A stretch of DNA of 32,003 bases. Origin: Bacilli bacterium (GTDB lineage: Bacteria > Bacillota_I > Bacilli_A > RF39 > UBA660). The notes beneath the pieces were generated by a model. It did not search any database, was not told the DNA's origin, and saw only the letters and a program-made list of their open reading frames with translations. A program made the position numbers and the translations under genes. Location of the stretch: contig JAQXQC010000079.1 in the NCBI GenBank assembly GCA_029100965.1, positions 1 through 32,003 on the forward strand. The letters are read 5' to 3'. Below, piece by piece: positions 19,410 to 27,270 of the stretch. Within the stretch, counting starts at the first letter, position 1. Each line of letters opens with the position of its first letter.

Positions 19410-20510
19410 TTACTCCACTTTAAAATTATTTATGATGTTAATCACATATTCTACTTCTTCATCTGTCATCCCATAATAAAGAGGCAAAGACAATTCTTCT
19501 TTGGAAATTTGTTCAGCAATTTCTAGATCATTTAATTTATCAAATTTATATGCCTGTTGTTTAGCGATGGATATTGGATAATGAATTAATGTCTCAATTC
19601 CATTATCTTTTAAATACTCTTGCAATTTATCTCTATTCTTGCATCTTACTGCAAAAATATGCCAAACATGAGTTCTATCGCTCCCAACTTTTGGAAGAAC
19701 TATTTCATTATTGGTTATCTTATTTAAATACATTTCTGCTATTTGCTGTCTCCTAATTGTATACTTGTCTAAATATTTCAACTTAATTCTCAAAAAGCCC
19801 GCTTGAATTTCATCAAGTCTTGAATTTACTCCTTTGTATATGTGGTGATATTTTTCTATTGAACCATAGTTTGCGATTGCCCTAACTTTAGTAGCTAAAT
19901 CCTTATTATTTGTTACAATTGCCCCAGCATCCCCTAATGCACCCAAATTTTTGCCGGGATAAAAACTAAAGCATCCTATGTTAGATAATGAACCAACTTT
20001 TTTTTGCTTGTACATTGCGCCATGAGATTGAGCACAATCTTCAATAACATATAAATTATATTTTTTAGCAACTTCATTTATTTTGTCCATATCACTACTC
20101 TGCCCATACAAATGCACCGCAATAATAGCTTTTGTTTTATTCGTGATATATTTCTCTAGATTTTCCCCAGATAAATTATATGTGTCTATATCTGGATCAA
20201 CCAAAACTGGATGAGCACCAACATAAGAAACTGCTAAAGCAGTTGCAATATAAGTATTTGAAGGAACAATAACCTCATCACCTTCTTTTATCCCCAATGC
20301 CAACAAAGCCAATCGAAGTGCATCTAAACCATTTCCCACTCCAACACAGTATTTTGTTCCTATATATTTTGCGAATTCTTCCTCAAATTTTTTATCCTCT
20401 TCTCCGCAAATGTACCATCCCTTATCATAAATATCTGTAAATTTATTCATCATTTCATCTCTAATTTCATCATGCATATATTTCATGGTAGAAAATAATA
20501 TTTTCATCAT
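19410..20510 (-). CDS. fdtB: FdtB/QdtB-like sugar aminotransferase
   Basis: This is a 366-residue PLP enzyme of the DegT/DnrJ/EryC1/StrS family. The PLP lysine is in [13 protein letters not shown] (K187), the ring-stacking acid in [10 protein letters not shown] (D158), and GNGLDAL marks the phosphate pocket. FdtB and QdtB convert dTDP-3-keto-6-deoxyhexose to the 3-amino sugar with glutamate as donor; the FdtA-like cupin two genes upstream makes that ketone. I start at the ATG at 20508-20510, which overlaps the upstream stop as ATGA and follows AAGGAG; the frame is open to 20564. Position C3 is inferred from the cupin partner. Galacto (Fuc3N) versus gluco (Qui3N) product is not resolved. Confidence 0.85.
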
Positions 20511-21637
20511 TTCACTCTCCTTATTACTTCTTTTAACCATCGTAAAGGTTTTGTAATCTTCCAAGAAACAGAGTTATTCACTCCTTCTATTATATTTAAA
20601 TAATACTCCTCTATCTCCTTTTTCTCACGTTCTATCTCGTCAATACAAAAGTATTTAACCATAACATTACCAGTCTCATGATATAAATCATTTATATTAA
20701 AATCATACTTTAACAGTTTATTCAGTATTTTTCTTTCATTTAAAATTAAATATTCAAAAGCATAACACTTATTATATGAATTAAGATAATTCATATTCAA
20801 AAGTTTGAAAAATTTTTCACACTCAATGCTAAAATCTTTATCATCTATATTCTTCTTAAAATCATTAGCAAATACTTTTTTAAAGTCTTCATCAGTTAAA
20901 CTGGTTATTAATCTACTATTTATAAAAAACATCTCATTTAATTGCCTAATCGTATTATTTAAATTGGAACTACTTAAACTTCCATTATCAATTCTTCTAT
21001 ATCCCATTAATTTTTCGTTAAGGATATAGATATCATACTTTTGAATTAATCTAGTCCAGTATTCATAATCATGTAATTGTCTAAAGCTATTATTATAAAA
21101 GCCAATTTCTTCAAATACCTTTCTCGGCATTAAAGAACTAGAATGACATAAATGATTCCCTACATCATAGAATAATTTTATTCTATCATATCGGCTCATG
21201 TTTTCATTTTTAAAAACATTAAACATTTGTGAATCATCAAATATTTCACTATTTTCATTAATAATATCAGTTTCAGTAAAAACACAACCAACATTATTTA
21301 TATTTTTTTTATAAAGTTTTTCTATATACTTAACTTGTTTTTCTATTTTAGTTGGATACCAAACATCATCAGAACCAATTATAGCAATATAATCCCCAGA
21401 TGCATGTTCTAACAATTTGTTAATCGAATAAACAACGCCCCTATTTTCTTTTGAAAAATATTTTTTTATTCTTTTATCTTTAATTTTATTTATTTCTTTT
21501 GCCGTACTATCCGTAGAACAATCATCAGAAATAAGTATTTCTAAATTTTGATATGTCTGATTAATAACACTACAAATACACTCTTTAATATAAATTTCAT
21601 GATTATATGCTGGAATTAAAACACTCACCAATTTCAT
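20507..21637 (-). CDS. Family 2 glycosyltransferase
   Basis: This is a 376-residue GT2 enzyme with [11 protein letters not shown] (4-14), [11 protein letters not shown] (35-45) and GSDD (88-91), followed by the [13 protein letters not shown] segment usual in O-antigen-type GT2 enzymes. The C-terminus ends in [14 protein letters not shown], a tail common in surface-polysaccharide glycosyltransferases. No membrane span is seen. AGGTGA precedes the ATG at 21635-21637. It sits between the acetyltransferase-cupin fusion and the aminotransferase that together would make the amino sugar, so it may transfer that residue; this is inference from gene order. Confidence 0.87.
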
Positions 21638-21688: not shown

Positions 21689-22645
21689 TTACTTTTTTAA
21701 TATTTTTTTAAAATAACGCTTTGCCTCTTTTTCGTAATCCTCATAATCTCTAATATAATCATCTTCATTATACTTTTCACTTGCTAAAACCATTAAAACA
21801 GCATCATTAGAAAAATTATACATCTCTCTCCATATCATATTTCCAATATATAATCCTTCACTTGGATTATCTAATATATATTCTTGTTCTTCAAAAGGTG
21901 TCTTTGCTAAAACAACAACACTTCCAGAAGTTGCAATTAATAATTGATCTAAATTATAATGGGAATGTCTCCCACGAACAATATCACTACCAACATTATA
22001 CATATAATAAACTCTATTTAAAGGAAATTTCAAATTTTTAGGGTTTTCCAGTGCAATCAAATCTCCTCTATTATCCGTTATTGGAGCATATTTTACTTTT
22101 TTTACATTTATCATTTCTTTTTCATTATTCTTCCATATTTGAACAAAATTGTTTTTATCAATGCTATACCAGTTAATATCTGACATTACTCCTTTTATTT
22201 CAAGAGATTTATTTTCCACTCTATCAAATTTAAAACCAAATTTTTCATAGAATTTATTTGCTCTTACATTTTCTTTTAAAACATACAAATAAACATTTTC
22301 AAGTTTTAAATCAAAAAAAGCATATTTTAATATCTTTAAAGTTGCCTGAAATGCAACACCTTTTCCCTGTACCCCTTTCCTAATACAAATTGCATATTCG
22401 GCACTTTTAAAATCTTTTTCTATATTTTTTAAACTTATCGTTCCCAAATATTCATCATTTGAATTATCAACAATGGCAAAATTAATATCTCTATCACTGA
22501 TTGAATTCCTAATAAATTCTTTTTGGATTTCCGCATTTGCAAGTTTACTAAAATTGTTTTTTAAATATTTTGTCAACTCCTCATCGGACATCCATTCAAT
22601 CATATATGGAATATCTTTCTCTTCTAATTTTCTTAATTTAATCAT
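21689..22645 (-). CDS. GNAT acetyltransferase fused to FdtA-type 3,4-ketoisomerase
   Basis: This 318-residue protein joins two enzymes. Residues about 1-160 are a GNAT N-acetyltransferase with the acetyl-CoA loop QGKGVA (93-98) and the NVRANKFYEKFGF end motif. Residues about 180-308 are an FdtA/QdtA-like cupin: RGRHSHYNLDQ (225-235), SGSVVV, LYIGNMIWREMYNFS and LASEKYNEDDYIRDYEDY. FdtA/QdtA shift the keto group of dTDP-4-keto-6-deoxyglucose from C4 to C3; the aminotransferase nearby would aminate C3 and the GNAT half would acetylate it. I start at the ATG at 22643-22645, seven bases after AGAGGT; it overlaps the upstream gene by 8 bases. The usual acetyltransferase in this pathway is a hexapeptide-repeat protein, so the GNAT partner is unusual. 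Confidence 0.85.
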   Translation of the reverse strand: MIKLRKLEEKDIPYMIEWMSDEELTKYLKNNFSKLANAEIQKEFIRNSISDRDINFAIVDNSNDEYLGTISLKNIEKDFKSAEYAICIRKGVQGKGVAFQATLKILKYAFFDLKLENVYLYVLKENVRANKFYEKFGFKFDRVENKSLEIKGVMSDINWYSIDKNNFVQIWKNNEKEMINVKKVKYAPITDNRGDLIALENPKNLKFPLNRVYYMYNVGSDIVRGRHSHYNLDQLLIATSGSVVVLAKTPFEEQEYILDNPSEGLYIGNMIWREMYNFSNDAVLMVLASEKYNEDDYIRDYEDYEKEAKRYFKKILKK

Positions 22646-23807
22646 TTTTTTTACCTCTACTTTTACTCTTAGAATAATCATTTTTTATAAAATTTACAAT
22701 TTTATACTTTACTTGACCGTCATATTCATCAAATAACTCTTTAATTAATTTTTCTCTTTCCGATTTTAAAATATCATTTCCCATTTTTAATTCTGAAATT
22801 TGGTTGGTCAATTCTTCAAAATTGTTAACTAAATAACATACTTTATATATTTTCTCTAAAATGCAATTAGAACTCTTTTCATTTCTCTTACAAATAATTA
22901 TTGGCTTATTATAAAGCAAATATTCAATAATTATTGAGGAATAATCTGTTATCAAAATATCAGAATCCCTAAAAGTATCTTGATATTCAGAACTATTATC
23001 ATACACATATCTCAACCCATCATATATTTTTAGATAATTTTTTACCTCTTTTGAACTCATTTGTTTTTTGGCAACAAAATTATCAAACATCATTGGGTGA
23101 GGCCTAAATACAAATTGTACATCATTATATTTTTTTACAAACGATAATAAATTTTCTTTGTATTCAAAAAATGAAGTGCCACAAATTTCATTATCAGTTG
23201 TCCATCTTGGTGTCCACAAAATATTATAATATCCTCTTCCAAACATAGATTTATTATTTTTAATTTGCTTTTTTAACTCATCAAGGTAGGGATAACCATA
23301 ATTAACAGTTATTTTTCTTTTATCTCCTCCAAAAATTTGATTTGCTACACAGTCCTTTTCATATTCATTTTCTGCAAAGAAAATATCTAAATCAGAAAAG
23401 AAGTCATTATTAAATGCCGCATTACTAGTATGTTTCGATAAATTATAACCATAATTCATATAACATGTTCTTGCGTAAGAAGAAATTATTTTTGAATTAT
23501 AGCATTTAGGTAAATAAATATTGTATGGCCTTTGAAAAAAGACATAGTCTGGATTATATTTCTCTAAATCAAACCAATCGTTTCCAACTCTAGCATTAAT
23601 TACACAATCTCCCAATTTTTCTTTCCAATATTTGTAATCTTCTATTGAATAATTATTAATATCACTTGGAAAGGCCAAAACTTTGATTTCAACACTAGGA
23701 TCATCGACCATTGTTTTAATTATATCTTTTACTTTATAATATCCTGCTTTATATTGTACGATATACACAACTCTTATTTTTCTTTGTTTTTTTTTCCAAA
23801 AATTCAT
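22638..23807 (-). CDS. CDP-glycerol glycerophosphotransferase-like protein
   Basis: This 389-residue protein belongs to the TagB/TagF-like glyphos_transf family. The C-terminal GT-B half shows YNILWTPRW, FRPHPMM (234-240) and DILITDYSSI (273-282), the signature of enzymes adding glycerol phosphate, or ribitol phosphate in relatives, from a CDP donor to a lipid-linked acceptor. Length fits a TagB-type primase rather than a long TagF polymerase. Family members in capsule loci can use other donors, so the donor is uncertain; no tagD-like cytidylyltransferase is in the window. AGGAG lies eleven bases before the ATG. It follows rmlC after 60 bases without a clear promoter. Confidence 0.85.
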   Translation of the reverse strand: MNFWKKKQRKIRVVYIVQYKAGYYKVKDIIKTMVDDPSVEIKVLAFPSDINNYSIEDYKYWKEKLGDCVINARVGNDWFDLEKYNPDYVFFQRPYNIYLPKCYNSKIISSYARTCYMNYGYNLSKHTSNAAFNNDFFSDLDIFFAENEYEKDCVANQIFGGDKRKITVNYGYPYLDELKKQIKNNKSMFGRGYYNILWTPRWTTDNEICGTSFFEYKENLLSFVKKYNDVQFVFRPHPMMFDNFVAKKQMSSKEVKNYLKIYDGLRYVYDNSSEYQDTFRDSDILITDYSSIIIEYLLYNKPIIICKRNEKSSNCILEKIYKVCYLVNNFEELTNQISELKMGNDILKSEREKLIKELFDEYDGQVKYKIVNFIKNDYSKSKSRGKKND

Positions 23808-23867: not shown

Positions 23868-24458
23868 TTAATACTGAAAATATTTTGGACTCTTTCCTAA
23901 TACCAAATGCTTAGTATCCTTCTCACTAGTAATAGGCTTATCTATTCCATACTTTTTAAACATACCATCCCAATCAATACCAAGTTCAGGATCGTTCCAA
24001 TAAATTCCCCCTTCATAGTCAGGAGCATAATCATTATCAATCAAATACTGAAAAATAGTATTATCCTCTAAACTAATAAATCCATGAGCAAATCCTCTTG
24101 GAACATATAATTGCCTTCCACTTTCCTTATCGTTAGCATCATATGGTTTTAATAAAACTGCTACATGTTTTCCATAAGTAGGAGAACCTTCTCGAATATC
24201 TACAACAACATCAATAGCACTTCCCTGTATTACTTCAACTAACTTAGTCTGACATTTAGGATTCTTTTGAAAATGAAGTCCTCTTACTACACCTTTAGCA
24301 CTTTTACTACGATTACACTGTACAACACCATAAAATTTAATTCCTTCTTTATCCATTTCTTTTTGAATAAAGAAAGGACTAAAATATCCTCTCTCATCTC
24401 CAAAAACACTAGGTTCTAATATATAACAATCTTTTAATTCAGTAGCAATCTTCTTCAT
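23868..24458 (-). CDS. rmlC: dTDP-4-dehydrorhamnose 3,5-epimerase
   Basis: This is a 196-residue cupin-fold epimerase. RGYFSPFF, the catalytic VRGLHFQ (58-64, His62) and the DIREGSPTYGKH and PRGFAHGF segments identify RmlC. It converts dTDP-4-keto-6-deoxyglucose to dTDP-4-keto-L-rhamnose, the step before RmlD. Length is normal for the family. Its start overlaps the rmlB stop as TAATG, so translation is coupled. It is the last of the four dTDP-rhamnose genes. Confidence 0.96.
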   Translation of the reverse strand: MKKIATELKDCYILEPSVFGDERGYFSPFFIQKEMDKEGIKFYGVVQCNRSKSAKGVVRGLHFQKNPKCQTKLVEVIQGSAIDVVVDIREGSPTYGKHVAVLLKPYDANDKESGRQLYVPRGFAHGFISLEDNTIFQYLIDNDYAPDYEGGIYWNDPELGIDWDGMFKKYGIDKPITSEKDTKHLVLGKSPKYFQY

Positions 24459-25468
24459 TATTTATCCTCCTTAAAAGCATTCTTATATTCACCACTTAAA
24501 ATATTTTCTATCCAATCCTCATGATTTAAATACCAATCAACCGTTTCTTTAATTCCCTCATCAAAAGTATAAGTTCTATTCCAACCTAATTCTTTTTCTA
24601 CCTTTGATGAATCAATTGCATATCTTAAATCATGACCCTTTCGATCAGCAACAAAAGTAATTAAATCTTCACTCTTACCCATCTGTTTCAATATTGTTTT
24701 CACAACTTCTAAATTACTTTTCTCAGAGTGTCCACCTAAATTATAAACTTCTCCGTCAACACCTTCACGAACAATCTTATCTACCCCAATATTATGATCG
24801 ATAACGTGAATCCAATCCCTTACATTCTCTCCTGTTCCATAAACTGGAATCTTTTCATCTTTTAACGCCTTAGAAATCACTAAAGGAATTAATTTTTCAG
24901 GAAACTGATAAGGACCATAATTATTACTACATCTACTAATCGTCACAGGAAGTCCATAAGTTCTATGATATGCCATAACAAGTAAATCAGCACTAGCCTT
25001 TGAACTAGAATAAGGACTAGAAGTATGAAGAGGCGTACTTTCTGTAAACAATAAATCTGGTCTATCTAAAGGTAAATCCCCATATACTTCATCTGTAGAA
25101 ACTTGATGATATCTCTTAATCCCATACTTTCTACAAGCATCCATCAAAACACTTGTCCCAATAATATTAGTGGTTAAAAAGATACTAGGATTCTTAATCG
25201 AATTATCTACATGACTCTCAGCAGCAAAATTAATGACAACATCAAATTTTTCTTCTAAAAATAACTTATCAATAAATTCCCTATCCGTAATATCCCCATG
25301 AACAAATTTAAAGTTTTCTTTTCCTTCTAAATCTTTAATATTATTATAATTTCCAGCATAAGTTAATGCATCTAAACAAACAAACATATCACTCTGATAT
25401 TTCTTTACTTCATAATGCATAAAATTACTACCAATAAAACCAGCCCCACCAGTTACTAAAAATTTCAT
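24458..25468 (-). CDS. rmlB: dTDP-glucose 4,6-dehydratase
   Basis: This is a 336-residue extended short-chain dehydrogenase. It shows the NAD-binding GGAGFIG (7-13), STDEVYG (124-130) with the catalytic Thr-Asp-Glu, and YSSSK (153-157). It dehydrates dTDP-glucose to dTDP-4-keto-6-deoxyglucose. In this locus that product feeds two branches: RmlC/RmlD to dTDP-L-rhamnose, and the cupin/aminotransferase pair to a 3-amino sugar. Its ATG overlaps the rmlD stop by 4 bases (ATGA) and its ribosome binding site GGGAG lies in the rmlD end. Full length. Confidence 0.97.
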   Translation of the reverse strand: MKFLVTGGAGFIGSNFMHYEVKKYQSDMFVCLDALTYAGNYNNIKDLEGKENFKFVHGDITDREFIDKLFLEEKFDVVINFAAESHVDNSIKNPSIFLTTNIIGTSVLMDACRKYGIKRYHQVSTDEVYGDLPLDRPDLLFTESTPLHTSSPYSSSKASADLLVMAYHRTYGLPVTISRCSNNYGPYQFPEKLIPLVISKALKDEKIPVYGTGENVRDWIHVIDHNIGVDKIVREGVDGEVYNLGGHSEKSNLEVVKTILKQMGKSEDLITFVADRKGHDLRYAIDSSKVEKELGWNRTYTFDEGIKETVDWYLNHEDWIENILSGEYKNAFKEDK

Positions 25469-26391: not shown

Positions 26392-27270
26392 TTATTTCCC
26401 TTTTTCTAAAACTTTCTTTAAATATTTACCATACCTATTCTTTTTCATCAAATCAGCACTCTTTTCTAATTCTTCCTCTGATAACCATCCTTTATAATAA
26501 GCAATTGCCTCAGGACAACAAATTACCTTATCCTTATTATTTTGAATCGAACGAATCATCGCTGTAGCATCAGCCATCGACTCTTCTGTACCAGTATCAA
26601 ACCAAGTATATCCTTCATCTAAAAGACAAGCTTTTAAAATTCCTTCTTGTAAATACATGTCATTTAAAGTAGTAATTTCTAATTCTCCTCTTTTTGAAGG
26701 TCTAACAAGAGAAGCTTTATCGCTTACTCCCTTAGGATAAAAATAAAGTCCCGTAATTGCCAAATCACTCTTAGGTTGAAGTGGTTTTTCTTCAACACTT
26801 AAAACATTTTTGGAAGAATCAATCTCCATAATTCCAAATCTCTCTGGATCTTTAACATGCACCCCAAAGATAGTCGCGTATCCTTCTATTGCATTTTGAG
26901 AAGCATTCATCAATACTTCTTCAAAACCACTACCATAGAAAATATTATCACCTAAAACCATCGCACATGCATCATCCCCAATAAACTCACGACCTAATAA
27001 AAAGGCTTGTGCAAGTCCATCAGGAGAAGGTTGAATAGTATAAGTAATATTCACTCCCAAATGTTTTCCATCTCCTAATAATCTCTTAAAAGATGCTTGA
27101 TCTTCCCTTGTTGTAATCAACAAAATATCTTTTATCCCAGCTTGCATTAAAGTCGATAAAGGATAATAAATCATTGGCTTATCATAAACATTTAATAATT
27201 GTTTAGAAGTCCCCATCGTAATTGGATAAAGTCTTGTACCAGATCCCCCTGCTAAAATAATTCCTTTCAT
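26392..27270 (-). CDS. rmlA: Glucose-1-phosphate thymidylyltransferase
   Basis: This is a 292-residue nucleotidyltransferase joining glucose-1-phosphate and dTTP to give dTDP-glucose. The signature GGSGTRLYP (8-16), LGDNIFYG (106-113) and VEEKPLQPKS match RmlA, and the length is that of the standard short form. The ATG overlaps the stop of the tagO-like gene as ATGA, with AAGGAGGAG upstream inside that gene. It begins the sugar-donor block and would supply both the rhamnose and the amino-sugar branches. Confidence 0.97.
   Translation of the reverse strand: MKGIILAGGSGTRLYPITMGTSKQLLNVYDKPMIYYPLSTLMQAGIKDILLITTREDQASFKRLLGDGKHLGVNITYTIQPSPDGLAQAFLLGREFIGDDACAMVLGDNIFYGSGFEEVLMNASQNAIEGYATIFGVHVKDPERFGIMEIDSSKNVLSVEEKPLQPKSDLAITGLYFYPKGVSDKASLVRPSKRGELEITTLNDMYLQEGILKACLLDEGYTWFDTGTEESMADATAMIRSIQNNKDKVICCPEAIAYYKGWLSEEELEKSADLMKKNRYGKYLKKVLEKGK

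Follow-up and report, generated by a model that had tools for sequence, protein, structure and literature searches.

The window, by which we mean the whole 32,003-nucleotide stretch analysed here, is a contig occupied mostly by one polysaccharide gene cluster. The first part of the cluster encodes a WecA-like transferase, RmlA, RmlD, RmlB, RmlC, a CDP-glycerol transferase-like protein and a fusion of a GNAT domain with an FdtA/QdtA cupin. The fusion is followed by a GT2 glycosyltransferase, an aminotransferase, more glycosyltransferases, a GtrII-like protein and an ABC exporter. The features relevant to the fusion are as follows.

19410..20510, minus strand: DegT/DnrJ/EryC1 aminotransferase; closest solved relative QdtB (3frk)
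20507..21637, minus strand: GT2 glycosyltransferase; accompanies the FdtA/aminotransferase/GNAT set in five family relatives
21689..22645, minus strand: putative bifunctional GNAT-FdtA/QdtA gene, 318 aa; ATG at 22645, with an in-frame upstream ATG at 22681
21692..22120, minus strand: FdtA/QdtA cupin of the fusion, residues 176-318; H227/H229, R273 and R193
22121..22144, minus strand: linker, residues 168-175, within and after helix 164-174 and up to Met176
22145..22645, minus strand: GNAT domain of the fusion, residues 1-167; E83 and Y133 conserved, CoA-loop QGKGVA at 93-98, S20
22638..23807, minus strand: CDP-glycerol glycerophosphotransferase-like protein (PF04464); accompanies the FdtA/aminotransferase/GNAT set
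24458..25468, minus strand: RmlB, dTDP-glucose 4,6-dehydratase (TIGR01181, 470 bits against a cut-off of 365); predicted to make the cupin substrate
26392..27270, minus strand: RmlA, glucose-1-phosphate thymidylyltransferase (TIGR01207, 412 bits against a cut-off of 361)

The minus strand at 21689-22645 is a single open frame of 318 codons, whereas the plus strand is full of stops. In Pfam searches, Acetyltransf_3 (PF13302) matched residues 3-139 (5.9e-22, 79.3 bits against a cut-off of 25.4) and FdtA (PF05523) matched residues 181-307 (1e-42, 145.5 bits against a cut-off of 23). An AlphaFold2 model of the fusion, built from 41 relatives, had a mean pLDDT of 95.7 over the full chain and a pTM of 0.78, and consisted of two domains connected by the short helix 164-174. 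A chance open frame was rejected: both domains are intact, and relatives carry the fusion too. The first-pass annotation had described a GNAT and a ketoisomerase in one reading frame, giving no strand, and the Pfam domains and the two-domain model agree with this. Its QGKGVA loop lies exactly at residues 93-98, and the RGRHSH motif of the cupin is also present, with numbering that was one residue off (224-229 instead of 225-230). Residues 1-160 fall inside GNAT, as had been claimed, and matched GNAT families only, both in Pfam and in fold comparison. By the same two methods, a hexapeptide (LbH) acetyltransferase domain was absent from the fusion chain. Met176 was probably the start codon of a once separate FdtA gene, judging from the split genes at loci L062 and L096.

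The enzyme for the middle step had been placed at 19410-20510, and an aminotransferase of the expected kind is indeed encoded there, in the same cluster. Its top match among solved structures was QdtB (3frk; 1.3e-143, 481 bits), with WlaRG, a C3-aminotransferase (PMC7725333), in third place (5u1z, 414 bits) and ArnB at 166 bits. The solved relatives closest to it are C-3 sugar enzymes, and the C-4 enzymes are far behind. Judged by its predicted proteins, the cluster encodes every step from glucose-1-phosphate to a 3-amino sugar.

The GNAT domain modelled alone had a pLDDT of 96.7. The closest solved folds to this half were SpeG (Z 24), PseH (21.3) and FdhC (20.1), and it was nearer to SpeG than to PseH or FdhC by sequence as well as by fold. 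The scores stayed below the equivalog cut-offs of both the SpeG spermidine N-acetyltransferase model in NCBIfam (NF011709, 49 bits against 218) and the PseH model (TIGR03585, 53.9 bits against 93.1). E83 and Y133 are conserved among relatives of the GNAT half, at places where a base and a general acid are often kept in GNAT enzymes. Residue 20 is a Ser in the window, and His occupies this position in 84 of the 85 sampled relatives, a biased sample drawn largely with a scan pattern that allowed only His or Ser there. Ser20 was rejected as proof of a dead GNAT, because two FdtA-linked GNATs found outside that pattern also lack the His and have Lys or Asn instead. That the GNAT half transfers a different acyl group such as 3-hydroxybutanoyl is unlikely on the general ground that acetyl-CoA is the commonest GNAT donor. 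The argument for such a donor comes from FdhC, which was crystallised with 3-[(R)-3-hydroxybutanoylamino]-3,6-dideoxy-D-galactose (5ktc; Salinger 2016, as cited in PMC12273574). The FdhC precedent also shows that a GNAT is able to act at this position of 3-amino-3,6-dideoxy sugars.

The closest solved relative of the cupin half was QdtA (47% identity, TMt 0.95), and the best solved relatives were QdtA, HCAN_0198, FdtA, WlaRB and the FdtD cupin. Alignment to 2pa7 and 4o9e placed H227 and H229 at the catalytic residues His49 and His51 of FdtA, both of which are kept. R273 aligned with His95 of FdtA and Arg97 of QdtA, a position that is Arg in retaining isomerases and His in inverting ones (review, PMC2943079). 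R193 aligned with Tyr17 of QdtA, so that the Tyr of wild-type QdtA is absent; Arg at this position is the FdtA residue, and it is also the Y17R residue of the QdtA Y17R/R97H double mutant. The R193/R273 pair is the same as in WlaRB, the structure of which is titled a TDP-quinovose 3,4-ketoisomerase. Since WlaRB has Arg there, a Tyr at QdtA position 17 seems to be no defining feature of retaining isomerases. Because R273 is the retaining Arg and the R193/R273 pair is WlaRB-like, the cupin is predicted most likely to retain the configuration at C-4' and to yield dTDP-3-keto-6-deoxyglucose, in the quinovose series (Qui3NAc). The QdtB-like aminotransferase of the cluster agrees with this series and provides further support for Qui3NAc. 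The same fusion with a cupin that inverts C-4', giving dTDP-Fuc3NAc of galactose configuration, would fit R193, which resembles FdtA and the QdtA double mutant in this one residue, but it is quite improbable in view of R273, where inverting enzymes carry His, of the Arg/Arg pair of a quinovose isomerase and of an aminotransferase nearest to QdtB.

Taken with the gene context, retention at C-4' leads to a proposal for the whole route. By analogy with the named families, RmlA and RmlB would provide dTDP-4-keto-6-deoxyglucose, and the C-terminal cupin would convert it into dTDP-3-keto-6-deoxyglucose with C-4' retained. The separate QdtB-like aminotransferase would add the amino group at C-3', and the N-terminal GNAT would acylate this group with an acyl-CoA as donor, in the simplest case acetyl-CoA. 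The finished sugar would then be incorporated into the polymer that the cluster builds, a surface polysaccharide or a teichoic-acid-like one. Hence, the fusion is probably a bifunctional enzyme in the pathway to a dTDP-3-acylamino-3,6-dideoxy-D-glucose, most likely dTDP-Qui3NAc, and it very probably carries the first and last dedicated steps of dTDP-3-acetamido-3,6-dideoxyglucose synthesis. That the first and last steps share one chain had been suggested for a 3-acetamido-3,6-dideoxyhexose; the two domains are joined and a C-3 aminotransferase is present in the cluster, and the expected hexose can now be narrowed to the predicted Qui3NAc.

The best six GNAT matches outside the window, among 386 genomes of the family (G468, G626, G474, G729, G686 and G557), each had an FdtA gene no more than about 1.2 kb away and lay beside an FdtB-like gene. 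In five of these six cases, the GNAT belongs to a conserved set composed of a GT2 glycosyltransferase, FdtA, an aminotransferase, the GNAT and a CDP-glycerol transferase-like protein. The window contains the same five functions in an altered order, with GNAT and FdtA joined. A similar cluster in G729 contains another fusion: the first part of a 437-aa open reading frame (L065, 7147-8460) matches RmlC and the second part matches RmlD.

The genome to which the window belongs (1.37 Mb, 95.7% complete) encodes at least one other GNAT, with 24% identity, and gave no match to the hexapeptide acetyltransferase model PF00132, which was present in 14 of 14 control genomes. Pfam scans of the cluster detected no acetyltransferase besides the GNAT. 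With no hexapeptide match in the genome, the GNAT is therefore the obvious acylating enzyme. It could instead act on a polyamine, a protein N-terminus or another sugar of the cluster, having been joined merely as a gene neighbour: SpeG is first in its fold list, and stop loss between abutting genes can fuse them for no functional reason. We regard this as very unlikely, because the SpeG model is far below its cut-off, the genome has no hexapeptide alternative, and the GNAT keeps with FdtA and the aminotransferase despite rearranged gene orders and is fused to FdtA in three separate tree groups (see below).

In G468, GNAT and FdtA are neighbours 2 nt apart and in different frames, and in the nearest relatives (L096, L100 and L108) the two genes are separate, with a gap of 1-2 nt or an overlap of 8 nt between them. 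In the same family search, four more genomes from the window's genus showed no FdtA part, and the fused junction in this lineage is therefore known from one assembly. It is highly unlikely that the junction is an assembly or sequencing indel and that the cell makes two abutting genes like these relatives, even with an open junction read once and Met176 located where a separate FdtA would begin, since indels are rare in short-read assemblies outside long homopolymers, the junction was modelled at pLDDT 88-96, and 35 other loci, some from isolates, have the same architecture.

These loci came from a scan of GTDB genomes that yielded 80 in total. GNAT and FdtA share a frame in 35 of them and are separate genes in 45, proportions that are biased because the loci were picked by GNAT patterns and ranked by their similarity to the fused query. 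The fused proteins are 301-320 aa long, except for one open reading frame extended upstream to 393. An aminotransferase of at least 44% identity was found within the examined stretch of 31 of the 35 fused loci; its gene was directly adjacent in 29, and upstream in 28 of these. Cultured carriers of the fusion include Blautia parvula, Oribacterium sinus, Acetatifactor muris and Ruminococcus flavefaciens. In less biased samples, each including the genome that prompted it, GNAT fusions accounted for 2 of the 11 FdtA genes in 392 genomes from the phylum to which the window belongs, and for 3 of the 20 in 391 genomes from Blautia's class. GNAT-FdtA is a widespread architecture in Clostridia, including many gut species. 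On plasmids of Roseobacter, separate genes for GNAT, FdtA and the aminotransferase follow one another (L201, 4462-6536; L202, 4002-6086), the GNAT being of a different subfamily.

Several known systems resemble the fusion in part. The structure 4mzu of FdtD from Shewanella denitrificans (Chantigian et al. 2013, as cited in PMC8040287) bears the title of a bifunctional ketoisomerase/N-acetyltransferase, and in Acinetobacter baumannii QdtE combines FdtA with Hexapep (PMC10327509); the statement in the first-pass annotation that FdtD joins the cupin to a hexapeptide-repeat acetyltransferase was right by this title and the QdtE parallel. Like both proteins, the window fusion is predicted to hold the ketoisomerase cupin and the acetyltransferase of a dTDP-3-acetamido-3,6-dideoxyhexose pathway in one chain, and its cupin is C-terminal as in FdtD. 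Unlike them, it has a GNAT domain in place of the left-handed beta-helix (hexapeptide). It would thus work like FdtD and QdtE but is no strict member of their group, the hexapeptide domain being absent. The system of Thermoanaerobacterium thermosaccharolyticum has the nearest aminotransferase (QdtB), a cupin with 47% identity (QdtA) and the same expected product, but there the steps are divided among three proteins, QdtA, QdtB and QdtC, the last of which is a hexapeptide acetyltransferase. FdhC of Acinetobacter nosocomialis (5kta/5ktc) shares the GNAT fold and acylates a 3-amino-3,6-dideoxy sugar; it is a separate protein that uses a galactose-configured sugar and a 3-hydroxybutanoyl donor, with 21% identity over the aligned part. 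WlaRB and HCAN_0198 (5tpu, 7n67) are stand-alone isomerases that share the Arg/Arg pair at the positions determining the product. Our literature search, which covered few subscription journals, found no paper describing a GNAT-FdtA fusion.

On the domain trees, the fused proteins fell in three places. The window fusion was placed among split Bacilli genes with a support of 98, the second group was a large set of fusions from Clostridia, and the third (L072 and L073) was located among cupins with Asn for the second catalytic His. The trees of both domains rejected a single clade of all fused proteins (p 2e-18 and 3e-6). Holding the window and the Clostridia type together was rejected on GNAT (p 2e-5, 3e-4) and not on the cupin (p 0.37, 0.095), and holding the window together with L072/L073 was rejected on the cupin (p 2e-57) and not on GNAT (p 0.15). 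Since the fusions form three groups and a single clade is rejected, the architecture changed repeatedly. Repeated fusion of adjacent genes would be the simplest explanation, and repeated fission appears less likely. The GNAT partner had been proposed as an independent solution to the same problem: the acetyltransferase fold does differ and the joining apparently happened several times, but an architecture peculiar to the window was rejected, as it is common in Clostridia (35 of the 80 loci).

The skip-one fusion of FdtD, with the first and last enzymes joined and the middle one apart, was therefore reached again with an unrelated acetyltransferase fold, apparently more than once. Another FdtA gene from the less biased samples (L172, 5317-6480; G805 contig C17) encodes an N-terminal FdtA cupin with a C-terminal NeuD/PglD-type hexapeptide acetyltransferase, the reverse of the FdtD domain order. 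We tentatively consider that linkage of the first and last enzymes may be under positive selection and may have arisen several times over: two or three times with GNAT as the partner, and also with a hexapeptide domain at the N-terminus (FdtD) and with one of NeuD type at the C-terminus (L172). The linked enzyme would dock the aminotransferase and channel the unstable 3-keto sugar within a closed complex. Whether such fusions serve substrate handling or shared expression is testable in Blautia parvula, Oribacterium sinus and Acetatifactor muris. The architecture also gives an annotation rule for proteins otherwise called just 'GNAT family' or 'FdtA/QdtA cupin'.

A class of FdtA-like cupins was also observed in which H-x-N replaces H-x-H, with Asn at the position of His51, and Lys replaces the Arg or His on which the stereochemistry at C-4' depends. 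These cupins were encoded by separate genes at 16 loci and were part of fusions at two (L072 and L073). For FdtA and QdtA, H51N is known from structures of laboratory mutants, and its natural occurrence in the H-x-N cupins suggests that their chemistry or substrate may be altered.
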